Positions 1,027 through 15,362 of a stretch of 64,000 nucleotides of DNA are shown piece by piece. The position numbers and the translations under genes were made by a program. The notes below the pieces were generated by a model that was not told the DNA's origin, did not search any database, and was given only the letters and a program-made list of their open reading frames with translations. Source of the DNA: Polynucleobacter sp. es-MAR-4 (GTDB lineage: Bacteria; Pseudomonadota; Gammaproteobacteria; Burkholderiales; Burkholderiaceae); contig NZ_JACVPF010000001.1 in the NCBI RefSeq assembly GCF_018882055.1, forward strand, positions 558,001 through 622,000, given 5' to 3'. The stretch's first letter is position 1, and every line of letters starts with the position of its first letter.

Positions 1027-1554
1027 TCACTGTTCGTCATCTGCCTCGCTCTTTAGCATTTTAAGTAATTGTTCCTCAATTTCCTGTACCTGCTTGTCCC
1101 GAGTAGTCTGGTTTGACAACACCACACGATTGAAAGGCTTAAGTCCAGAACGAACAAGCGCATTATTTGCTGCTGGATAAGGACTTTTATTCTCATCAAC
1201 TGCTTTAAAAAAAGCATCTATAAAAGTCTTAGCCCGCCGAATTTCAATCTTATCAATCGACTTTTCATAGGCATCTAGCAAGCCATCTTCTATCTCCTTG
1301 CTAGACTTTTTAAGGATTTCAATTTGTACTTGACGTTTAGATTTCCAACCTAGGGCATCTTTTTCTTCTTGAGTTCTTGCCCTTTTTTTACTACGCAATG
1401 CTTTCTGGTCAGCCCATGCCGCATCTAACTCCAATCGCTGTGCAGGTGTCAGTAAATTTTTTTTATCTCTAGGATGCACCTCTGCACCTGCCTCAAGTTC
1501 AGCAATCCTTTTGTCTATACGGATTTGACGGTCTTGATCAGTCAGCTTAGGCAT
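1027..1554 (-). CDS. Uncharacterised charged helical protein, last gene of the defence-like operon
   Basis: A 175-residue soluble protein, highly charged and probably mostly helical (residues 1-110), with no membrane segment and no catalytic motif I recognise. The ATG at 1554 is chosen because it lies one base after the stop of the upstream Res-like gene (TGATATG) and is preceded by AAGGG; the longer frame from 1584 would overlap that gene. The tight junction implies translational coupling and a shared job with the methyltransferase and helicases. It contains KNLLTPAQ near residues 32-39, shared with the small protein at 53-412. It could be a specificity, adaptor or regulatory subunit, but that is inference from position only. 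Confidence 0.75.
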   Translation of the reverse strand: MPKLTDQDRQIRIDKRIAELEAGAEVHPRDKKNLLTPAQRLELDAAWADQKALRSKKRARTQEEKDALGWKSKRQVQIEILKKSSKEIEDGLLDAYEKSIDKIEIRRAKTFIDAFFKAVDENKSPYPAANNALVRSGLKPFNRVVLSNQTTRDKQVQEIEEQLLKMLKSEADDEQ

Positions 1555-1555
1555 A

Positions 1556-4312
1556 TCAACCCTTGTATTGCTTGACCAGTCCACTCAGTGTTGCACTAGG
1601 AAGAATTGCAGTGTGCGGAATAAGAATGTAGGCCCACTCTTTACCGCCATTCTTCACCTCATGCGCAGTTGCATTCTGGCACCACGTAACCGCAGCACTC
1701 TTCTTAGCTAGCACGTTAACATCATCCATCATGCTGGCTTGCTTAGGCTCGATGATGTATTTGTGTGTCGCCGTTTCAACCACAAAGTCTGGTTCATAGT
1801 TAGCAGTACTGCCGCTTGCATCTCGGTAGCTGATAGAAAATTGATCACGAGTAGGCTTAAACCACTTCTTAACGTCCAAGTCTTTTTCCAGCAAGCTAGC
1901 AAAGGCACGTTCACTATCACTGCTAAATTTTTGCACTGGATATGAACAGCGTTCAAAGCCACCAAACAACATACCGCCGATCCTGTCACGCTCACCCGTT
2001 GCCAAAGGTTGATGTACGTTACGCAGCTTCTCATCGCCATCAGCCGAGTAGCTTGTATCCGTAAACGTTTGATAGCCACGACTAACAGTTACCTCGTAGC
2101 CCTCGTCAGCCTCCTGCCACCAGTGCTGCTGCATTTGGGCATGAATGTAGGTGGAATACTGACGCTGGTTGAACTGAATGACATTCAGCACTTTCTCATC
2201 GGTATCCAAATAACTGCGTAGCTTGGCTACCACTTGACTAGAAAGCTTGTAAAGAATGTCCGCATGCTCGTCGTAGCTGATGTCATCAAAATCCACCAAA
2301 TTACGGACGATGTAATCCTCAAACCGCTCTTCAGTTGCGTAGGCTAAGTCCGCATGAATTCTTGACCTGTCACTAGTCCTCAAGTGTTGAATAAGAATGT
2401 TTTGATCAACTGGCTGCTGATTGATAGCACTGGTATCAAGTTCAAAATCTTTAAAGCCTGTTCGCACATTGCCCTTTGGTCTTACGCTGATACGCGGAAT
2501 ACCAATATTCAAGTCCAAGTACCGCTTCAAGCTATCTTTGACAATGGCTGCAATATCGGGCTTTGTACTTGTTTCAGCAAATTCAGCTTGCGCTGGTTGG
2601 TAAGTGGTCTCGTATGCCTCAGTCACTTTCTTTGCGATACGTTCTTGTACGTCTGGCTTGATAAGGGCTTCAAGATTTGGTACATCCGATACCCTACGCT
2701 CGTTTTCCTTGATCGCCTCAACGATTAAGTTGACCACGGTCTGTTCTTCGCGTGTTGTTAGCACGGGCTTTTCCTGTACGCCCAACTCAAATTGCTGGGA
2801 TGGCACGGGTTGAACTGTAGGGCGACCAATGAGCTGCTCAATGGCAGTATTGGTCACTGTCACAGCCTTTTTACCAACCAAGCTAACGTCTTTGCCGATA
2901 CGAACGACAGAACGAATGATTGAGTTTGGTTTGTTTGCCTCGTTGATAATGGCATCAAACTTGTCGTGCGCAACGATGGTCAATCTATCAACGGCAGCAA
3001 CACCCATGCGCTTACCGTACGGCAGACGTAAGCCACGACCAATACTTTGCTCAACCAGTGTCGAGGAGTTGGCAGCACGTAATGGAACGATGGTGTACAA
3101 ATTCCTAACGTCCCAGCCTTCTTTCAATTTATCTACGTGGACAACAATCTCTGTCGGCTCATTTGGGTCTTCGACTGCAAGTAAACGTGCAATCGTCTCA
3201 TCGCTCTCAGTACCCTTTTGGTTGGAGTGAACGGTGATTACCTTGTCTTTGTAGCGCCCATCAAAAAAGTCATCACGCTTTATGCGTTCAACAATATTGT
3301 CCGCATGTGCAGTGTCTTTTGCCACAACAAGCATGAACGGCTTAACAATTGGTAAATTGTGATTACGGGCAAATGTTGCAAGCTCGATCTTTGTGTCTTC
3401 ATGCACCACAACGCCATCACGTATTTTCAAATCTTCAAGTTCTTCCTCGCCATAGTTATCGGCGTTGAAGTCTTCACGTGTCGCAACTGCTGGCTCTTTT
3501 ACAAAGCCATCCGCAATCGCGTTAGCCAATGGGTAGTCAAAAATAATATTCTTGAAACGTTCGGGTGTTGTGCCGCTTTCAATCTGCGGTGTAGCAGTTA
3601 ATTCCAATCCAAGCATAGGCTTGAGTTCATTGATTGCCTTAAAACCTGCACTTGCACGATAACGATGGCTCTCGTCCATGATCATTACTAAGTCGTCCAA
3701 GCTGGCTAGATACTCAAAGTAGCTTTGACCGATGTACTCGCTTAGGCGTTTGATGCGCGGGGCTTTACCACCACGCACCTCACTGCTAATCTTTGCAACG
3801 TTAAAAACGTTGATGGTTACTTCATCTTGATTTAAGCGTCCGCTGCCAACGTCAATACCGCTGTCATAGTTGTCGCCAGTAATCACTAATGGTGGATTAT
3901 TTGCAAACTCTTGCAAGCCATTGAGCACGTACTTGGGCGATGCTGGTGAAAAATCAGTAATTAGCTTGTTGTAGATGGTCAAGTTTGGCGCAAGTACAAA
4001 GAAATTACGCACACCGTATTGCGTGTAGAGCAAAGCCATAAATGCCCCCATCAAGCGTGTCTTACCAACGCCAGTGGCTAGCGCAAAGCAAAGTGACACA
4101 AAGTCACGATCAAAGCTTGCAACGTTTGGGTAGGCCTCCTGCACCTTTGCTAGTTCAGCCACTAAGTCACCACCTTTTACAGGTGGATTTAGCTCAAGTA
4201 TGTAAGCCAAAATTTCAAGACTGTCGCGCTGAGGCTGACGAAGGCTAAGCCGTGAACTGATTGCATTCACGTTGCGCTTTGATTGTTCGTTGAGGCTGTA
4301 GAAGGCTGTCAT
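1556..4312 (-). CDS. Type III restriction Res-like helicase-nuclease
   Basis: A 918-residue superfamily 2 helicase with a C-terminal nuclease-like domain. Visible motifs are Walker A ATGVGKT (79-85), Walker B DESH (213-216), TATP (239-242), a second RecA-like domain with an arginine-finger region (SIGRGLRLPYG, near 430), and a PD-(D/E)xK signature at the C-terminus: PD at 841-842 and ExK at 855-857. This is the layout of type III Res subunits, which translocate on DNA and cut when paired with a Mod subunit; the length is close to the usual size. It begins 12 bp after the Mod-like gene, with AAGAGAG upstream of the ATG. All key motifs look intact. It differs from classical mod-res pairs in sharing an operon with an SNF2 helicase. 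Confidence 0.9.
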   Translation of the reverse strand: MTAFYSLNEQSKRNVNAISSRLSLRQPQRDSLEILAYILELNPPVKGGDLVAELAKVQEAYPNVASFDRDFVSLCFALATGVGKTRLMGAFMALLYTQYGVRNFFVLAPNLTIYNKLITDFSPASPKYVLNGLQEFANNPPLVITGDNYDSGIDVGSGRLNQDEVTINVFNVAKISSEVRGGKAPRIKRLSEYIGQSYFEYLASLDDLVMIMDESHRYRASAGFKAINELKPMLGLELTATPQIESGTTPERFKNIIFDYPLANAIADGFVKEPAVATREDFNADNYGEEELEDLKIRDGVVVHEDTKIELATFARNHNLPIVKPFMLVVAKDTAHADNIVERIKRDDFFDGRYKDKVITVHSNQKGTESDETIARLLAVEDPNEPTEIVVHVDKLKEGWDVRNLYTIVPLRAANSSTLVEQSIGRGLRLPYGKRMGVAAVDRLTIVAHDKFDAIINEANKPNSIIRSVVRIGKDVSLVGKKAVTVTNTAIEQLIGRPTVQPVPSQQFELGVQEKPVLTTREEQTVVNLIVEAIKENERRVSDVPNLEALIKPDVQERIAKKVTEAYETTYQPAQAEFAETSTKPDIAAIVKDSLKRYLDLNIGIPRISVRPKGNVRTGFKDFELDTSAINQQPVDQNILIQHLRTSDRSRIHADLAYATEERFEDYIVRNLVDFDDISYDEHADILYKLSSQVVAKLRSYLDTDEKVLNVIQFNQRQYSTYIHAQMQQHWWQEADEGYEVTVSRGYQTFTDTSYSADGDEKLRNVHQPLATGERDRIGGMLFGGFERCSYPVQKFSSDSERAFASLLEKDLDVKKWFKPTRDQFSISYRDASGSTANYEPDFVVETATHKYIIEPKQASMMDDVNVLAKKSAAVTWCQNATAHEVKNGGKEWAYILIPHTAILPSATLSGLVKQYKG

Positions 4313-4323
4313 GTTTACTCTCT

Positions 4324-6039
4324 TTACTCTTCGCCAAACAAGTCAGCTTCTTTCATTGCTGCTTTCGTTTTAGGAGCTACTAATTCCTCGTCGGCTATCT
4401 CTGCTAAAGGCAAATTAGATATGTTTAAGCTGTAGTCGTCTTTGCCCCACTCACACTTAGATAGCAGTGCATGCGGCATCTTTTTAAGTGTTAAGTTTGA
4501 TAGCTTGTCATTCAGCATTGACGAACTTGCTTTAAATGCGGCACAACAGACTAGCAACGTGCGATCGCTACCAACATCCTCGCTCAGTGCAACCAACTGT
4601 TCTTCTGTAAGCGTTTGCGTAGTTACATATATAAAGTCTGTTTCAGTGCTGTAACCATGTGCCCACCATTCAGTTTCACTTGGGCTATACGTAAACCCCT
4701 CATGCTTGCACACAGCAGCAGCAAGCATATTGGCGTCGTAGTCTTTATTAATTACCCAGTTGTCCCATTTGTCTTTTGCAAGCAAAGATGGTGCAAGTTT
4801 GTAGTAACGGAAACCCCCGCCGCCTTTCCAATTTAACGCCTTACTTACCCCAGAATGGTCATCTCCATCGATAATTGCTTTCAATCTAGGTATCACATGC
4901 GTATGACATTGCTCCCCCAACTCAAGCATTACCCATTTTCGCCCCATCTTGTGAGCAACTGCACCTGTTGTTCCAGAACCCGCAAACGAATCCAATACTA
5001 TGTCGCCTTTTTCAGTCGCAATTTCAATAACTCTGTGCAATAACTTTTCTGGCTTCTTGCCTTTTGGAAAAACCACATTACCTTCATTTGCGATGCCTTG
5101 ATATGGAATATCAAGCCACATATTTGTTAATAACTCACCAGTCACTAGCTTGCCATCGATAACTTTCATCTTGTCTTTATAAAAAAGAATTCTGTCGCCT
5201 TTTATCAAATAAATGTCTGGGTTATCTTCGCGCTTTTGCAATAAGATTTCAGTTGGGCGACTTCTTGATTCCAAAATAAGTTCTTTGGTTTCCTTGCCCA
5301 CGCCTTCAAAGTTAGGCTGTGCAAATCTAATAATCCTCTCGGGGAAACGCTCAAGGCATTCATCCAAGGTTAAGTTCAATTTCTTTAAGGCTGTTTTTAA
5401 AGACACAAAAGACCAGTATTGAGTACCTTTCTCATAATTTTCAATAAATTTGTTGTAAGCAGTATCAAATTCACGCTCAGTAAACTGCTGCTTATAGTTC
5501 CATCTACTTTTATTTTTTGCATAAACAAGCAAATAGTCAGCAACTTGGACTGGTGATGGGTTTATTGATTTATGACCTGTTGGAGCACTTCTTTTAATTG
5601 TGTTTTGAATAACAAAATTATTTCTTCCAAATATTTCATCGCACAATACTTTTAGATAGTGAACTTCATTATCATCAATCGTTATCCAAAGAGAACCATC
5701 CTCAGTTAAAAGTTTATGCAACACTTCAATTCGATCACGCATAAGCGATAACCAAATTGAATGCTCAAGTCCGTCTTCATAATGCTCAAATGCTGAGCCA
5801 GTGTTATAAGGTGGGTCAATAAACACACATTTAACTTTACCCGTGTACTCTTGCTCCAACGCCTTAAGTGCAAGCAGGTTGTCACCATATATCAACTTGT
5901 TATCAAATAAGTCCTCATTTGTAAATCGCTTTGAAGCGTGGTAGGAAAGCTCTGCATCTTCAATAAGTATTCGCGGCTCAACTTTATTGCGGCTATCTTT
6001 GCCAACCCAATTCAATTCTAATTTGTGTTTTTTAGTCAT
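4324..6039 (-). CDS. Site-specific DNA N6-adenine methyltransferase, type III Mod-like (beta class)
   Basis: This enzyme should transfer a methyl group from S-adenosylmethionine to adenine in a specific DNA site. With the start at 6039 (571 aa), DPPY (motif IV) is at 75-78 and FAGSGTTG (motif I, cofactor binding) at about 352-359. The order IV before I marks the beta class used by type III Mod subunits. The region between the two (about 140-330) would hold target recognition. The ATG overlaps the stop of the helicase gene as TAATG and has GGAG nine bases upstream; in-frame ATGs at 6054 and 6090 are less likely. Both motifs are intact, so it is probably active. The last 200 residues are not recognisable to me and may bind a partner. 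Confidence 0.92.
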   Translation of the reverse strand: MTKKHKLELNWVGKDSRNKVEPRILIEDAELSYHASKRFTNEDLFDNKLIYGDNLLALKALEQEYTGKVKCVFIDPPYNTGSAFEHYEDGLEHSIWLSLMRDRIEVLHKLLTEDGSLWITIDDNEVHYLKVLCDEIFGRNNFVIQNTIKRSAPTGHKSINPSPVQVADYLLVYAKNKSRWNYKQQFTEREFDTAYNKFIENYEKGTQYWSFVSLKTALKKLNLTLDECLERFPERIIRFAQPNFEGVGKETKELILESRSRPTEILLQKREDNPDIYLIKGDRILFYKDKMKVIDGKLVTGELLTNMWLDIPYQGIANEGNVVFPKGKKPEKLLHRVIEIATEKGDIVLDSFAGSGTTGAVAHKMGRKWVMLELGEQCHTHVIPRLKAIIDGDDHSGVSKALNWKGGGGFRYYKLAPSLLAKDKWDNWVINKDYDANMLAAAVCKHEGFTYSPSETEWWAHGYSTETDFIYVTTQTLTEEQLVALSEDVGSDRTLLVCCAAFKASSSMLNDKLSNLTLKKMPHALLSKCEWGKDDYSLNISNLPLAEIADEELVAPKTKAAMKEADLFGEE

Positions 6040-8921
6040 TATTTCAAGCTCCATCGCACAACAAACAGTTTCGTCTTGTTCACAGTACATTGCAATTGTT
6101 TTTCCACTTTCTTGATTAACGTATCACGCTGTTCGTCAATGCGATCTTGCGCCTCATACAAGCTTCTACGTTTAGCATTTCTACTTTGTTCAAGGGTGCG
6201 TAAGTTTTTTTGATGCTCTAACTTTGATGCAAGTGACATGGCTGTGGAGGCAGACTTCTTAGCCTCTTTGATGTCCTTGTCAAGCTGTTTGATTTCAGTC
6301 TCAAGTCCAAACTTCAAATCATCAGCCCAGCTATCTAACTTGCCAGCCTCTTCATCAAAGTAAACAGCATTACGCTCATCCAGTTTTCTTGCCACGGCAT
6401 CACGTTGTTTACCTATTGCCATTTCAAGCTGCACTGTTGGTACTTGAGAAGTACAAGAACTAATGCTTGAACAATGGATTGCCATTAGCCGTTCAGCTAA
6501 TTCAGCATCAAGCACTTCACCATCATCTGTTATTGCAGTGATAGCCAAGAAATCCTCATCCTCAACGCTGCTTACAGTTATCTTTTCTGCGGCAACCCAG
6601 CCACTTTTACCAAGGTGCGGCTCAAGTGCGCTGACTTTGAATGGATATGCGTTGTAATCAAGCTCAAGCGTAACGTTGCTATCTAAATCACGTCCCAACG
6701 CATTGCTAACAATCCAACTTGCAAGTGGACTTGTTTCTGCAAAAAAGTGCTGGTCTTTGCTATCGGCAGCTCGCCAATCAAAGTTATATGTGCCCACTAG
6801 AGCGCCACTGTCTACTGGACTTTCATGTAGGTCAAAGACTGTTCCGCTAGCCTCAAACTTAGCAATATCTGCTAACTCAGTTTTTGCAAGCATGAGCAGC
6901 AAGCTACTTCTTTTGTCCAGCATTGCCTTAGTTTGATCGTGACTAACTTTTAAACGTGCATTTACCTCTTCGTCAAAGTTCTCAAGCAGCTTTAAGCGTG
7001 TTGTCTCAAGTGCGGCCTTAATCTGCTCGTCAAGCTCTTCTTGTATTTCATCGAATGCAAGTTGAATTTCATCGGCTGTTCGGCACGTTTGGTAAACCCC
7101 TGCAATCCGCTTCTCAATATCTACGCCATTCTCAATTACGCCAAGTACTTCATCGCTTGCCCCGAACACACCATCAAATAATTTAAATTTTTCAGCCAGT
7201 AGTTGATACACACGCTGGTCAGCAGCATTGCGTTTATTCAAAAAGTTAACGACAACCACGTCAAACTTCTGGCCGTAACGATGGCAACGCCCAATACGCT
7301 GCTCTACACGCTGAGGGTTCCATGGCAAATCAAAGTTAACTACAAGAGAGCAGAACTGCAAGTTCACACCTTCTGCCGCACTCTCAGTGGCAATTAGGAT
7401 TGTTGCGGTGTCTCTAAAGTGCTCAACAATTGCAGCCTTCATGTCAGCAGTTTTTGAACCCGATACCTTGTCACTTCCAGCATGCTTCTTAACCCAGTCA
7501 GCGTAAATTGCTTTTGATTGTGGGTCTGTGTTTGTCCCGTTCATCAAGCAGATTTGGTTCTCAAAGCCAGACTGCGAAAGCAGCTCAGCCAAGTAACGTT
7601 GAGTGCGTGTTGATTCGGTAAAAATTACAGCCTTCTTCGCAGCACCGATACCTTGCAGCTTCTCAAACGCAGTAGCTAAGACCTTTTGTAACGCCGCACC
7701 CTTTGCGTTCTCACGTATACCGCTGGCAAGTTTTGCATAGTCTCGCAACTCTGCTAACTCAAGCCGCAAGTCTTGCAGCTCTTCTTCAGTCAACTTACCG
7801 CTTGCCTCTTCTACTGCATCAGCGCCAATTTCGTCCGTCAGTTCGTCAAGACCTTCAATCTCGCCATCAAGCAATTCCAGAACACTTTGGCGTGCTTGGG
7901 TTTGTTCAAGTCGTTCGACCAGTTTTTGCAGTGTTGCAGCAATAGCATAGCTACTCGATGCCAATAATTTTCGCAGAACAAGCGTCATCAACGTTCGCTG
8001 ACTTCTTGGCAGTGCATTTAACTTTTCACGTTGAAGATACGCTGACACTTGCTCGTAAAGCCTGTGCTCATCATCGCTTGGAACAAACTCTTCCGTCATC
8101 GCCACACGCTGCGTGAACTTGATGTACTCAAGAACTTGCTTACGGAGTGTGCGCTGGCAAAAAGGTTTGATGCGCTCTTTTAATCTTGAGTTACGCAGGT
8201 TTTCATTTACGCCACGGATGTACTGTTCTTTAAAGCTAGTAATGTCACCGAACACGTGCGGGTCAATGATGCTTACCAGTCCGTACAGCTCAAGCAAACT
8301 GTTTTGCAACGGTGTAGCTGTCAGCAGTAACTTGGGCACATCTGCAACAACACCAGCAATTGCTGATGCCATCTTATTTCCAACTTTGTAGACGTTGCGC
8401 AGCCTATGCGCCTCATCTACAACGACCAAATCCCACTCAACATCCTCAAGCACATCAGCTTTTGATGCAGCAAAGTTATAAGAGCAGATAAGCAAGCTAT
8501 TGCCACTTAACAATGTCCCGTCTTTCTTTAATTGCTTGTATGTGCCATTTTCAAGAATAGTACTTGGAATGTTGAACTTGTCCATTAACTCCTGCTGCCA
8601 TTGCTTTCGCAAAGTTGCTGGTGCAATGATCAACAGCTTGCGTTTACGTTCAGCCCATTTTTGACTGATGACGATACCAGCTTCAATGGTCTTCCCCAAA
8701 CCAACTTCATCAGCAAGTATTACGCCCTTACTAAGTGGGCTGCGTACAGCAAACAACGCTGCATCTACTTGGTGTGGATTCAAGTCAACTCGTGCTGAGG
8801 CTATTGCATGACTGAGCTTGTCAATGCTGTTAGCTGGTTGCCGCAACGTAAGTTGTGTAGCAAACAGCTTTGATTGGTAGGTTGAATACGGGCGCATGAT
8901 GTGAGCGTTAGTCTTGCTCAT
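6039..8921 (-). CDS. SNF2-family DEAD/DEAH helicase (defence-associated)
   Basis: A 960-residue SNF2-like double-stranded DNA translocase. The first RecA domain has DEVGLGKT (71-78) and DEAH (169-172); the second has QRIGRCHRYGQ, the usual motif VI region, near 530-545. A long Glu/Lys-rich insertion (about 340-410) and a C-terminal coiled coil (about 850-945) follow. No nuclease motif is visible. SNF2 helicases of this type occur in phage-defence loci such as class 1 DISARM (DrmD), but the other DISARM proteins (DrmA, DrmB, DrmC) are absent. It overlaps the preceding gene by 14 bp; GGAGG directly abuts the ATG, so a later ATG at 8897 is possible. Its 3' end is fused to the Mod gene start (TAATG). 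Confidence 0.9.
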   Translation of the reverse strand: MSKTNAHIMRPYSTYQSKLFATQLTLRQPANSIDKLSHAIASARVDLNPHQVDAALFAVRSPLSKGVILADEVGLGKTIEAGIVISQKWAERKRKLLIIAPATLRKQWQQELMDKFNIPSTILENGTYKQLKKDGTLLSGNSLLICSYNFAASKADVLEDVEWDLVVVDEAHRLRNVYKVGNKMASAIAGVVADVPKLLLTATPLQNSLLELYGLVSIIDPHVFGDITSFKEQYIRGVNENLRNSRLKERIKPFCQRTLRKQVLEYIKFTQRVAMTEEFVPSDDEHRLYEQVSAYLQREKLNALPRSQRTLMTLVLRKLLASSSYAIAATLQKLVERLEQTQARQSVLELLDGEIEGLDELTDEIGADAVEEASGKLTEEELQDLRLELAELRDYAKLASGIRENAKGAALQKVLATAFEKLQGIGAAKKAVIFTESTRTQRYLAELLSQSGFENQICLMNGTNTDPQSKAIYADWVKKHAGSDKVSGSKTADMKAAIVEHFRDTATILIATESAAEGVNLQFCSLVVNFDLPWNPQRVEQRIGRCHRYGQKFDVVVVNFLNKRNAADQRVYQLLAEKFKLFDGVFGASDEVLGVIENGVDIEKRIAGVYQTCRTADEIQLAFDEIQEELDEQIKAALETTRLKLLENFDEEVNARLKVSHDQTKAMLDKRSSLLLMLAKTELADIAKFEASGTVFDLHESPVDSGALVGTYNFDWRAADSKDQHFFAETSPLASWIVSNALGRDLDSNVTLELDYNAYPFKVSALEPHLGKSGWVAAEKITVSSVEDEDFLAITAITDDGEVLDAELAERLMAIHCSSISSCTSQVPTVQLEMAIGKQRDAVARKLDERNAVYFDEEAGKLDSWADDLKFGLETEIKQLDKDIKEAKKSASTAMSLASKLEHQKNLRTLEQSRNAKRRSLYEAQDRIDEQRDTLIKKVEKQLQCTVNKTKLFVVRWSLK

Positions 8922-9531
8922 CCTCCAAGCGCAAACGTCGAGCTGTCAACGTCTCATCTTCAAATTTCCAGTAATCACTACCGCTTACAGCCGCCCATTT
9001 GTAGCCCATCTTTTGTGTAGCAATGAGTGCCGCCTTGCTTGGCGACATGATTTGATTCTGGAAGTCCACTTCACCGTTTGCAACAACCGTGCAAGTCACC
9101 GCCTCATCTTTTACAAAAACAAGCGTTGCGCCAACAGGAATGTTCAGCTCGCTGAATTTAAGCCTTGATCGTCTATCCTGTGCGACTGCTGCCTTCTGCA
9201 ATGCCTGTACATCACTAGCATCAACAACAACGTCAGTTCTTGGCGTAACGTCTTTTGGACTAGCAATCATGATTGCAGCACGGACTTGGTTGGGGTCAAC
9301 TCGAAAAAACTCCCGATTACTTCGGACTCGCTTATCAGCAAATGCCTTATGCAAATGTGCTTCAACATAGGTCGAATCGTTCACCTCACCTGCAAAAAAG
9401 CATTGGAATGGCAGTGGAGTGCTTGTGTTGTCAAGTTCTTTGATGCGCTGCTCTACGCTTGTTGAAGTCCTGCCGATCTTTACGAGACCGTCCATTGCTT
9501 CATTTGTAAGTACGTATACGATTTCAGCCAT
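8908..9531 (-). CDS. GIY-YIG-like (T5orf172/MUG113) protein with DUF4357-like C-terminus
   Basis: A 207-residue protein with two parts. Residues 1-90 look like the T5orf172/MUG113 branch of the GIY-YIG nuclease fold: a VYVL strand, VKIGRT in place of YIG, an Arg in EQRIKEL, a Glu in VEAHLHKAF, and a terminal REFFRV. Residues 125-205 resemble DUF4357, with a conserved SPSKAA helix, which often follows GIY-YIG domains. The first tyrosine-glycine pairs are degenerate, so catalysis is not certain. It begins 2 bp after the regulator gene, with AGG in front of the ATG, and runs into the helicase gene. It may be the nicking or cutting effector of the system, or a DNA-binding accessory. Confidence 0.8.
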   Translation of the reverse strand: MAEIVYVLTNEAMDGLVKIGRTSTSVEQRIKELDNTSTPLPFQCFFAGEVNDSTYVEAHLHKAFADKRVRSNREFFRVDPNQVRAAIMIASPKDVTPRTDVVVDASDVQALQKAAVAQDRRSRLKFSELNIPVGATLVFVKDEAVTCTVVANGEVDFQNQIMSPSKAALIATQKMGYKWAAVSGSDYWKFEDETLTARRLRLEDEQD

Positions 9532-9533
9532 AG

Positions 9534-9722
9534 TTAACCTGCCATCTTTTTAGTTTTAATTGCTGCTTTAGTCTTGGTTGCATTCGTTTTCAACTGTTCT
9601 ACGTAGCCCCTCATAAACTGTCGAAGCACCTGCGCCGCTGGCACATGTTGAGCTTGGCAAGCGGCAACGAACTCTTCCCGCAAATCCTGTTCAACCCGTA
9701 TCCGCATTCCAGCATCTTTCAT
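9534..9722 (-). CDS. Ribbon-helix-helix (Arc/CopG-like) regulator, first gene of the operon
   Basis: A 62-residue protein with the pattern of a ribbon-helix-helix DNA-binding dimer: a short beta strand (MRIRVEQDLREEF), helix A (EFVAACQAQH) and helix B beginning PAAQVLRQFMRGYVEQL, then a Lys/Thr/Ala-rich tail. The start at 9722 is supported by GGAGG five bases upstream; a frame opening at 9752 lacks this. Such proteins at the head of an operon commonly repress it, so autoregulation of the defence-like genes is likely. A relaxosome or antitoxin role is possible but no partner gene for those is present. Confidence 0.78.
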   Translation of the reverse strand: MKDAGMRIRVEQDLREEFVAACQAQHVPAAQVLRQFMRGYVEQLKTNATKTKAAIKTKKMAG

Positions 9723-9784
9723 ACTGCCTCCGTGTCTCCAATGTGTATCCACTTTACCATTAATATCGGTTCAGTTACCAGCAA

Positions 9785-9817
9785 AATGTTCACGAACAGT
9801 CACGGACAGCGAACATT
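9785..9817. promoter_or_regulatory. Candidate operator: 7-bp inverted repeat upstream of the RHH regulator
   Basis: AATGTTC (9785-9791) and GAACATT (9811-9817) face each other across 19 bp, 63 bp upstream of the regulator's start codon. The position suits an autoregulatory site for the ribbon-helix-helix protein. It is short enough to be chance. Confidence 0.3.
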
Positions 9818-9912
9818 GCGGACACAGTGGTCAAAAATCACCACCTCAAAAGCATAAGTACTCCCCTGCAACTTTTTGCGCAGCTTGTTTTTTGGGGGCT
9901 GTAACCCTTTTT

Positions 9913-10109
9913 CAGCGCAAGTCCACCGTCTGTAAAGCCCTACAAGCTGCGCTAGTGCCAGCCCAGCTACCCAAACCAGCGAAATGCAGTCAAAACGCTT
10001 GTAGGGCTGCAAACTTGCAAATTGCAAGTTGCGCTGTAAATCGTGGCGCTTTAGCCACGAGACTGGGCTAAATATCACTGAGCATAAATTACACAAAATA
10101 TGCTCAGTG
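9913..10109. ncRNA. Candidate structured RNA or recombination site: nested inverted repeats
   Basis: Arms at 9913-9920/10029-10036 enclose a 12-bp exact pair at 9936-9947/9997-10008 and a near-perfect palindrome at 10012-10030 (9-bp arms, one-base centre). Downstream are 10041-10047/10054-10060 (7 bp, six-base loop) and an 11-bp exact pair at 10076-10086/10099-10109. In addition AGCCCAG (9960-9966), in the loop of the 12-bp stem, matches CTGGGCT (10063-10069), which would make a pseudoknot. This could be a folded RNA, or DNA sites for the adjacent tyrosine recombinase. The strand of any transcript is unknown. Confidence 0.35.
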
Positions 10110-10222
10110 CAGCTAAGTTGTTGATTTATATGAGGCTTGCACGAGGCAAAAAAGGGGTAGGAATTTTGCACATACGAAAACATACTAATAGCACTTTAAA
10201 CATATCAACGCGAAAGGTGCAA

Positions 10223-10792
10223 ATGTCAAAGCAAGCCAAAACACTAAACGAACGCGAACTGCAACGTTTGTTGGATTTCGTGAAAACGACAAAGAACGCA
10301 ACACGCAACCGCGCCATCTTGCTTCTAACACACTTAGCTGGCATGCGCATTGGCGAAGTTGCTGCTGTACGTGTTTGTGATGTGCTTGCAAGCGATGGCA
10401 GCGTTCGCGAAGAAATCAACCTTAGCGCAGCACAAACCAAAGGCAACCGCAGCCGCAGCGTTTTGCTTAACGAGCGCATGCAATCGGAATTAGCAACTTA
10501 CATTCGCTCAGTCCGTGTACGCGACAGCAAGCAAGCATTGTTTGCAACACAGCGTAGCGCAGCATTTACAGCCAACTCGCTTACCCAAGTTGTAAACGGC
10601 ATTTATAAACACGCTGGTTTTGATGGTGCTAGCAGTCACAGTGGACGTAGAGGGTTTTTGACAAACTTAGCTGAGAAAGGTGTCAGCGTTCGCGTAATGA
10701 TGGCACTCGCTGGTCATGCCAATATGGCAACCACGCAACGTTACATTGACTTGAGACCAGGTGTGCTGCGTAACGCTGTAGAACTTGTATAA
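10223..10792 (+). CDS. Small tyrosine recombinase (FimB/XerC-like catalytic domain only)
   Basis: A site-specific DNA recombinase of 189 residues. It has the full catalytic set: Arg in GMRIGE (about 44), Lys in the beta-hairpin (TKGNRSRS), HSGR (H-x-x-R), GHANM (second His) and nucleophile Tyr in TTQRYIDL. It lacks the usual N-terminal core-binding domain, so it is similar in size and layout to the FimB/FimE DNA invertases rather than to phage integrases. The start at 10223 is chosen because AAAGG lies just upstream; the frame is open further, to 10100. Its stop directly abuts the stop of the integrase on the other strand. It may act on the inverted repeats just upstream, or help excise the island. 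Confidence 0.85.
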   Translation: MSKQAKTLNERELQRLLDFVKTTKNATRNRAILLLTHLAGMRIGEVAAVRVCDVLASDGSVREEINLSAAQTKGNRSRSVLLNERMQSELATYIRSVRVRDSKQALFATQRSAAFTANSLTQVVNGIYKHAGFDGASSHSGRRGFLTNLAEKGVSVRVMMALAGHANMATTQRYIDLRPGVLRNAVELV

Positions 10793-12265: not shown

Positions 12266-13873
12266 CTATTCCCACTCGATAGTTGCCGGAGGTTTTCCGC
12301 TGATGTCGTAGACCACGCGATTGATGCCGCGCACTTCGTTAATAATGCGATTAGATACCTTGCCCAGCAACTCATGTGGCAAGTGGGCCCAGTGTGCAGT
12401 CATAAAGTCTTGTGTTTGCACCGCTCTGAGCGCAACAACATACTCATAGGTTCTGCCATCACCCATAACGCCAACAGATTTGACTGGCAAGAACACTGCA
12501 AAGGCTTGACTGGTGAGGTCGTACCAGGATTTTTGACTTGCTTCATCAATCGTATTGCGCAACTCTTCAATGAAAATGGCATCAGCACGTTGCAAGAGGT
12601 CAGCAAAATCAGCCTTAACCTCACCTAAGATGCGCACACCAAGACCAGGTCCTGGGAATGGATGGCGATAGACCATCTCACGCGGCAAACCTAAGGCAAC
12701 GCCGAGTTCACGCACCTCATCTTTAAATAATTCACGTAATGGCTCAAGCAGCTTGAGGTGCATATCTTCAGGCAAGCCACCCACATTGTGGTGGCTCTTA
12801 ATCGTATGCGCGCCCTTTTTACCCTTACCGGCAGACTCAATGACATCCGGATAAATAGTTCCTTGGGCAAGCCACTTGGCATTTTTAATCTTGCCAGACT
12901 CGATTTGGAAAATCTCAACAAATTCTTTGCCAATAATTTTGCGTTTAGCCTCTGGATCAGCGACACCGGCGAGCTCAGACATAAATTTCTCTTTGGCATC
13001 TACTCGAATTACCTTGACGCCAAGGTTGCGAGCAAACATCTCCATCACCATGTCGCCTTCGTTTAGACGAAGTAAGCCATGGTCCACAAACACACAAGTG
13101 AGTTGCTCACCAATCGCACGGTGGATTAATGCTGCTGCTACGCTAGAGTCAACGCCGCCGGACAAGCCAAGAATGACTTCTTCATCGCCAACTTGTTTGC
13201 GGATATGCTCAACCGCTTCACTAATGTAGTCACCCATCACCCAGTCAGGCTTGCACTTGCAGATCTCATGTACAAAGCGACCTAGGATAGCCTCGCCTTG
13301 CAAGGTATGCGTTACTTCTGGATGAAACTGGAATGCATAAAAACGGCGCTCTTCATCTGCCATGCCAGCAATCGGGCAAGACTCTGTTGAAGCCATTAAC
13401 TTAAATGCTGGCGGCAATGTCGTGACTGAATCACCATGACTCATCCACACTTTCAGAATGCCGTGGCCTTCGCTAGTAGAGAAGTCCTGAATACCTTTGA
13501 GCAAATTAGTGTGACCATGAGCACGTACTTCGGAGTAACCAAACTCACGGGCTTTACCCAAGGATTCAGCAGAAGCAACGGCGCCACCAAGCTGGGTTGC
13601 CATGGTTTGCATGCCGTAGCAAATACCCAGAACAGGAACACCTAATTCAAAAACGATTTGTGGTGCACGAGGACTACCCTCTTCTGTAACAGAGCTTGGT
13701 CCACCAGAAAGAATGATTCCCTTGCCACCCTGCTCTTGAATAAATTTGCGAATAAATTCTGGATCGCAATCGTAGGGATGGATTTCGGAATAGACACGTG
13801 CATCACGCACGCGTCTGGCAATTAATTGGGTGACTTGTGAACCAAAGTCGAGAATCAGTATTTTGTCGTGCAC
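12266..13873 (-). CDS. guaA: GMP synthase (glutamine-hydrolysing)
   Basis: Converts XMP to GMP with ATP and glutamine, the last step of guanine nucleotide synthesis. It has a class I glutamine amidotransferase domain with the nucleophile Cys in GICYGM (about 85) and His/Glu in FHPEVTH (184, 186), then an ATP pyrophosphatase domain with SGGVDSS (from 238) and a dimerisation domain ending PPATIEWE, the usual C-terminus. I place the start at the GTG at 13873 because family members begin M-H-D-K-I-L; a TTG at 13894 overlapping the guaB stop would add seven residues. It follows guaB in one operon. Its 3' end carries the island junction, and the reading frame is preserved. Confidence 0.96.
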
Positions 13874-13886
13874 GAAAGGAACAGTC

Positions 13887-15362
<1,476 letters not shown>

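Follow-up and report, generated by a model that had tools for sequence, protein, structure and literature searches.

What are six tightly packed genes to one another: parts of one dedicated defence system, or a restriction-modification (R-M) enzyme around which other genes come and go? The question is raised by a stretch of 64,000 nt from Polynucleobacter sp. es-MAR-4 (contig NZ_JACVPF010000001.1, positions 558,001-622,000), here called the window, in which a genomic island carries genes for a putative regulator, a GIY-YIG nuclease, an SNF2-type motor, the methyltransferase (Mod) and restriction (Res) proteins of a type III-like enzyme and a helical protein. A preliminary description of this DNA took the six as one composite system. 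From comparison of the sequences with those of other genomes, we consider it rather probable that the operon encodes a mobile, type III-like R-M system, with the RapA/DrmD-like SNF2 protein as a third core gene and with optional cargo defence genes in slots of the operon. In the following, G numbers denote genomes (the window's own, of 1.93 Mb, is G000) and L numbers fetched loci; L017 and L126 are the loci of G006 and G016, both of the same genus as the window.

Gene content of the operon

In order of transcription, the six genes are:

9534..9722, minus strand: putative ribbon-helix-helix (RHH) regulator, 62 amino acids (aa); Pfam RHH_9 17 bits, below the cut-off of 23.4
8908..9531, minus strand: GIY-YIG (T5orf172) nuclease with a RAMA-like C-terminal domain, 207 aa, read as optional cargo; Pfam T5orf172 67.5 bits
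6039..8921, minus strand: SNF2/RapA-like motor, DrmD-related, 960 aa, read as a core gene; Pfam SNF2-rel_dom 129 bits, PADLOC DrmD 694.7 bits
4324..6039, minus strand: Mod, DNA methyltransferase of the type III kind, 571 aa, core gene; PADLOC MTase_III 661 bits
1556..4312, minus strand: Res, superfamily 2 (SF2) helicase with a PD...ExK motif, 918 aa, core gene; PADLOC REase_III 730 bits, Pfam ResIII 75.9 bits
1027..1554, minus strand: all-helical protein, 175 aa, read as an optional 3' gene; 60 homologous proteins, AlphaFold2 model

All six open reading frames (ORFs) begin with ATG, contain no internal stops and are spaced, from 5' to 3' of the operon, by +2, -14, -1 (TAATG), +11 and +1 bp. 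These recomputed coordinates agree with the preliminary description of six intact, tightly packed genes on one strand, and the SNF2, Mod and Res motifs that it named are all present in the sequences. An upstream start for Mod is offered at 6090 by the ORF listing; 6039 was taken as the better fit because the congeneric Mod starts immediately after the SNF2 stop. When the nucleotides of the operon were shuffled 50 times (mononucleotide shuffles), the longest open frame was 205 aa, so that SNF2, Mod and Res lie far above chance, and the reality of the small ORFs is argued from their homologues and not from their length.

Type III R-M enzymes cleave DNA in an ATP-dependent reaction that requires two sites, and methylate one strand only. 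The present pair resembles those of the EcoP15I kind in having adjacent Mod and Res genes on the same strand, with a gap of 11 bp; in a Mod whose DPPY (motif IV) precedes FAGSG (motif I), with the variable target-recognition region between them (about residues 135-335 in the window's form); and in a Res with an SF2 helicase and a predicted PD-(D/E)XK nuclease, the latter recognized by motif patterns alone. The PDB matches of Mod are headed by a Mod protein (6k0w) and EcoP15I Mod (4zcf, E 3e-28); Res matches EcoP15I Res weakly (E 4.7e-5). The locus differs from that type in its third recurrent gene, SNF2, in its cargo slots and in the occurrence of three Mod/Res lineages with one SNF2 clade.

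The SNF2 protein also carries Pfam Helicase_C, and its best PDB sequence matches are RapA. Among the best 25 PADLOC model matches taken for SNF2 and for Mod, DrmD is the top-scoring model for SNF2, with its best stretch at residues 38-667. The protein falls below both NCBIfam cut-offs for DrmD, scoring 697 bits against 950 for DrmD_b and 261.5 against 610 for the other model.

Recurrence of the SNF2-Mod-Res core and exchange around it

The SNF2 clade, defined by matches at E≤1e-100, was found in 21 of 368 other genomes of the class and in 18 of 397 other genomes of the phylum; the two samples have some searched genomes in common, all without matches, and no matching genome occurs in both. Loci were fetched from 19 of the class genomes (G226 and G311, with SNF2 at a contig edge, were omitted) and from all 19 places in the phylum sample. 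Mod lies downstream of SNF2 on the same strand in 16 of the 19 class loci and 17 of the 19 phylum loci, and Res is present in addition in 12 and 15, respectively, L090 and L135 being counted as having the genes although these are in pieces. The five loci without Mod are L091, L094 and three (L079, L131, L132) in which the contig ends no more than 2.4 kb from SNF2. The earlier description of a type III-like Mod and Res with an SNF2 partner is upheld.

Three Mod/Res lineages, with Mod of about 550, 650 and 1100 aa, pair with the same SNF2 clade. Along the SNF2 tree (24 inner branches, 13 starred and 7 open) the lineage changes four times, where the minimum possible is three and the mean of shuffled labels 9.3. 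One locus labelled short, L093, has a truncated Mod that fits the medium lineage better (672 versus 429 bits), so that four may overstate the changes.

Divergence of the core proteins is correlated. Over 14 loci the distance matrices of SNF2 and Res gave r 0.91, and those of SNF2 and the catalytic part of Mod 0.76 (0 of 1000 permutations in each case), while the Mod middle region gave 0.19 with SNF2 (139 of 1000) and 0.13 with Res, within the permutations. Without L017 the 13 remaining loci gave 0.88 for SNF2-Res, 0.78 for SNF2 and the Mod catalytic part and 0.30 for SNF2 and the middle region. Since the catalytic part of Mod correlates with its own middle region at r 0.44 (32 of 1000 permutations), the latter is loosely, not wholly, decoupled. 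For a 15-locus set we dropped L055 and L092 (partial SNF2) and L009, L010 and L081 (other lineage), and for the 14-locus set also L090, whose Mod lies in two frames. Over 20 loci of mixed lineage, r for Mod and Res was 0.92. L055 itself, which has SNF2, Mod, Res and GIY-YIG genes, was excluded from the core, its SNF2 being only 22% identical.

The order SNF2, Mod, Res also occurs on plasmids of Cupriavidus, Rhizobium, Deinococcus, Aeromonas, Salmonella, Ketogulonicigenium, Hymenobacter, Klebsiella and Roseomonas, spanning Pseudomonadota, Deinococcota and Bacteroidota; these nine were picked by hand out of 744 records in which SNF2 had some match, with 80% coverage in 46. When the Salmonella locus was compared with E. 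coli DNA, 4 of 5426 genomes covered 80% of the query, and among the matches listed most were to IS256 transposase, which is also contained in the SNF2-Mod gap of that plasmid. On the Klebsiella IncF plasmid (L016:9992-19512) a Mod of 1046 aa and a Res of 1120 aa adjoin SNF2. In E. coli CFSAN064036 a small HTH_17 protein upstream of SNF2 (L107:2814-3014) is annotated as MAD1 of the methylation-associated defence system (MADS), its neighbours being SNF2, Abi, Mod and Res.

Exchange is most readily followed in the three congeneric islands at the end of guaA, all of which keep the regulator, SNF2, Mod and Res. Between the window and L017, 907 of 960 residues of SNF2 and 880 of 918 of Res are identical; Mod retains 19-30 identical residues per block of 30 in most blocks outside its middle region, with fewer at both ends, and 4-10 of 30 between about residues 150 and 350. 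In L126 SNF2 is 93% identical, Res is 81% identical by DNA and Mod has a third middle region. The Mod middle region has been replaced in both islands, with SNF2 and the Res of L017 still 93-96% identical. Five of the six genes (RHH-GIY-SNF2-Mod-Res) recur in L017; in L126 an unrelated gene of 185 aa (L126:6183-6740) takes the place of GIY-YIG between the regulator and SNF2. Its product has no Pfam match and, by eye, a likely N-terminal membrane segment. No match to the GIY-YIG or helical protein was found in the L126 stretch at E≤10, nor to GIY-YIG in the G016 genome at E≤0.001, and the helical gene is absent from L017 as well. The L126 island is the most direct sign that the GIY-YIG and helical genes are replaceable.

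Elsewhere in the clade, genes are lodged within the core. Gaps of at least 300 bp separate SNF2 from Mod in 14 of the 16 class loci and 9 of the 17 phylum loci, and Mod from Res in 8 of 12 and 5 of 15; these are counts by length, and because part of the split SNF2 of L135 lies in its 443-bp gap, cargo in the phylum sample is better put at 8 of 17. Inserts for Pfam and PADLOC were chosen by hand, mostly the larger ones; those of L079 and L131 follow SNF2 on contigs that end before any Mod. By Pfam they comprise AIPR (L076, L127, L134, L136, L138), AAA with subtilase (L077, L080, the former IetA/IetS by PADLOC), GmrSD (L081, L131), AAA_13 or SMC-like AAA (L082, L083, L129), AAA_21 or AAA_15 (L084, L086, L092, the last AriA-like by PADLOC), Schlafen-AlbA (L089, L137, L139) and, in single loci, SIR2 (L130), HipA (L087), KilA-N (L088) and Fic (L079). 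PADLOC matched nine of ten chosen inserts (seven loci) at ≤1e-10, some distantly, and gave no match for the Schlafen-AlbA insert of L089. Cargo occurs without SNF2 too: AAA or subtilase genes precede Mod in L098, L099, L102 and L104, all SNF2-lacking. An insert of 359 aa between SNF2 and Mod in L078 (5034-6113) has no Pfam match and is a candidate new defence gene.

Possible function and alternative explanations

In the likely working of the system, the small regulator would control the operon, the adenine site that Mod methylates would be specified by its exchangeable target-recognition region, and Mod-Res would, by analogy to EcoP15I, cut DNA without the mark. The SNF2 motor might aid this restriction arm by travelling along or clearing DNA, a role suggested by SNF2 distances that correlate more closely with Res than with Mod, for which linkage alone might suffice. 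Cargo, here the GIY-YIG-RAMA nuclease and the helical protein, may act, by analogy to PrrC, as a second line where a phage evades or inhibits restriction. A bolder proposal, which we consider doubtful, makes SNF2-Mod-Res a distinct and widespread R-M class and a general guard platform: the motor would power restriction and restrain a lodged effector, and a phage that blocked the motor or Res would thereby release cargo (nuclease, SIR2, AIPR, IetAS, PARIS-like and others).

Several observations weigh against the favoured reading of a core with SNF2 and cargo slots. Of 21 other class genomes with the Res lineage (E≤1e-30), 13 have SNF2 and eight lack it at E≤1e-100, two candidates having been scored per genome; Mod lies near Res in seven of the eight, and the stretches fetched from them, several of which are cut by contig ends, showed no SNF2. 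Because such Mod-Res pairs occur, the motor is not obligatory, and the earlier statement that the enzyme needs a second translocase was too strong. Mod is missing from L091, where SNF2 is split, and from L094, which holds fragments with Res present. The 20 loci of mixed lineage give lower values, 0.55 for SNF2-Res (0 of 2000 permutations) and 0.41 for SNF2-Mod (27 of 2000), and correlated distances can come from physical linkage alone. Moreover, the SNF2-Mod slot of the window is empty, so that the comparison of its cargo with the internal cargo of other loci is an analogy. These SNF2-free pairs, together with cargo that constitutes a defence system in its own right (the IetAS models), would suit an ordinary type III Mod-Res pair moving alongside an independent SNF2 and other defence genes, with no common mechanism. 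We give this explanation a minor, though appreciable, probability; it accounts less readily for the finding that 33 of the 38 fetched loci have Mod after SNF2 (in three of the other five the contig ends), and for an SNF2 tree that tracks three Mod/Res lineages, with all of which SNF2 pairs.

A further candidate is a derivative of DISARM, whose core is DrmA, DrmB and DrmC, with DrmD and a methylase retained and DrmABC lost or replaced. The place of DrmD as the best PADLOC model of SNF2 speaks for it, as does the likeness to class 1 DISARM in a RapA/SNF2-like protein beside an adenine methylase gene. It is unlikely, and markedly so: Mod scores best with type III models, SNF2 is under the NCBIfam DrmD cut-offs, and no ORF of DrmA or DrmB size is left on the island beyond the operon and the integrases, which upholds the earlier remark that DrmA, DrmB and DrmC are missing, PADLOC having been run on the six operon proteins only. 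Equally improbable is the view, proposed earlier, of all six genes as a single dedicated system to which GIY-YIG and the helical protein are essential. Tight spacing, a single transcription unit and the five genes shared with L017 would fit it; replacement of GIY-YIG in G016 and absence of the helical protein from L017 and the G016 stretch do not. GIY-YIG was found in only one of the 21 other SNF2-bearing class genomes, there on a separate contig, and the SNF2 clade in one of 46 GIY-YIG loci (L017), of which 34 extend at least 3 kb downstream and 12 less than 3 kb. Across genomes, the SNF2-Mod-Res core recurs in other bacteria and five genes persist in G006, while the exact six-gene set was found in no other genome examined and looks like a local assembly.

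With regard to named systems, no PADLOC or NCBIfam model examined covers all six genes, in agreement with the preliminary description, and no name for the SNF2-Mod-Res core was found in the literature, mostly open-access, which is weak evidence. MADS was rejected, there being no MAD model among NCBIfam matches of the six proteins at E≤0.01, and so were the BREX-related (BR) systems, as Pfam matched DUF499 in none of nine island proteins (E≤0.1); ARMADA was set aside by comparison with its description only, with no dedicated search. In the available parts of their descriptions, ARMADA (PMC12458937) and the BR systems (PMC12839542) share with this locus a Swi2/Snf2 RapA-like helicase and a methyltransferase, and differ in YprA- or GajB-like partners or DUF499, which are not seen here. 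EcoprrI-PrrC and toxin-linked R-M operons, in the parts available (PMC3710099, PMC12707154), likewise hold second-line effectors inside an R-M locus, PrrC however in a type I locus and here varied cargo in a type III-like one with SNF2. Linked toxins in R-M operons are already described in PMC3710099, and the accessible part of PMC2292703 already describes MORC-linked R-M operons, type III-like and, separately, with SWI2/SNF2 helicases.

Should the SNF2 motor prove to be a working component of a type III enzyme, there would be a motor-assisted branch of R-M, which the model libraries examined split into type III subunits and a DrmD-like helicase. New defence genes, some of them unannotated, could be sought in the recurrent cargo slot, and tests of how R-M is coupled to second-line effectors would no longer be confined to PrrC.

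Accessory proteins, regulator and island

The GIY-YIG protein is matched over residues 2-204 by the PADLOC candidate PDC-S57 (243.9 bits), a full-length match to a model of one gene and not of an operon. Residues Y6, G20, R29, E57 and N72, which we take to be catalytic, are invariant in an alignment of 26 rows. Pfam RAMA matched 8 of the 26 aligned relatives (E≤5; best E 2.9e-4) and not the window's own protein (E≤5); DUF4357 matched none of the 26 at E≤5, although HMMER filters discard most matches above 0.1. The structure model is moderate, with a predicted local distance difference test score (pLDDT) of 74 and a predicted template modelling score of 0.44. In Foldseek nothing reached E≤0.001; the first two matches were CcrM (6pbd; probability 1.00, E 0.024), then Slx1, and next DNA-bound MPND (7ydw; probability 0.99, E 0.16). 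Of the earlier assignment to GIY-YIG/DUF4357, the first half stands (T5orf172), and the C-terminus is better read, from relatives and predicted fold, as RAMA-like. According to the part of PMC9963953 available, a portion of CcrM is called a RAMA domain, and the role of RAMA as a reader of N6-methyladenine (6mA) is disputed, MPND binding being unaffected by 6mA. Fusions of GIY-YIG and RAMA with the identical two-domain layout are mentioned as existing, and deferred to future study, in the available part of PMC11037411. If the nuclease depended on 6mA, host DNA marked by the neighbouring adenine methylase would need to escape it.

Elsewhere the GIY-YIG protein keeps other company, which tells against the earlier view of it as a needed partner. 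Matches to Mod, Res or SNF2 lie no more than 6 kb away in 16 of its 46 contig loci, and are weak (30-47 bits) in four; when PADLOC was run on ten neighbours in ten loci, one of which (L045) belongs to the 16, six were type IIG, II or I R-M genes and four gave nothing. It was matched in 6 of 149 relatives besides its own genome, one at full length (G006, 97%), and in 32 plasmid records, 4 at 80% coverage. GIY-YIG-RAMA relatives are found in many metagenome-assembled genomes of Patescibacteria and other candidate phyla (several of L027-L050), often near R-M genes. In Limnohabitans sp. Jir61 (L019:10001-15550) GIY-YIG directly overlaps a medium-lineage Mod-Res pair, with no SNF2 in the stretch.

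An AlphaFold2 model of the 3' protein, with seven helices and a mean pLDDT of 85, backs its helical nature as first described; no PDB fold matched at E≤0.001. A HEPN assignment was rejected, there being no R-x4-6-H by eye and no fold match. Among 369 class genomes it occurs in its own and, as a weak partial match, in G261. Neither it nor its relative P0021 had a plasmid match, and P0021, the only query used against phages, had none there. One IMG/VR contig carries a relative (L063:4046-4663) with a Sel1-repeat gene nearby; profiles found no Mod, Res or SNF2 in that locus.

As to the putative RHH regulator, its Pfam match is below threshold, though homologues occupy the same place in L017 and L126. 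Upstream of it lies a candidate operator:

9732..9750, minus strand: tandem GGATACAC / GGAGACAC repeat, 11 bp apart

This degenerate pattern, picked post hoc, has a single match in the window and none in 100 shuffles, and the genome contains its 21-base form once when up to three mismatches are allowed. The repeat is conserved in L017, whereas bases further upstream diverge. A scan of 9500-10200 found no sigma-70 promoter.

Beyond the operon, the island comprises:

10100..10792, plus strand: second integrase-like protein; Pfam Phage_integrase 99 bits
10793..12133, minus strand: tyrosine integrase of the island, adjoining the guaA 3' end; Pfam Phage_integrase 35.3 bits, cut-off 27.1
12266..12284, minus strand: guaA 3' end, the right attachment site, from the empty site in G008

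The integrase reported beside the operon is thereby confirmed by Pfam. The gene at 12266-13894 encodes GMP synthase (guaA, by Pfam), and related islands lie at guaA in G006 and G016. In G008, of the same genus, the site is empty: the guaA end runs straight into sequence that starts at about -1409 in G000 (0 being the base before window base 1), and bases 119-137 of the G008 stretch match both island ends. This comparison places the left attachment copy outside the window, at about -1427 to -1409, and the island from about -1427 to 12265, or 13.7 kb. The end repeat is imperfect, of about 19 bp, and ends in GGGAATAG. The rest of the island contains small ORFs only, two of them with DUF6876 and DUF6641.

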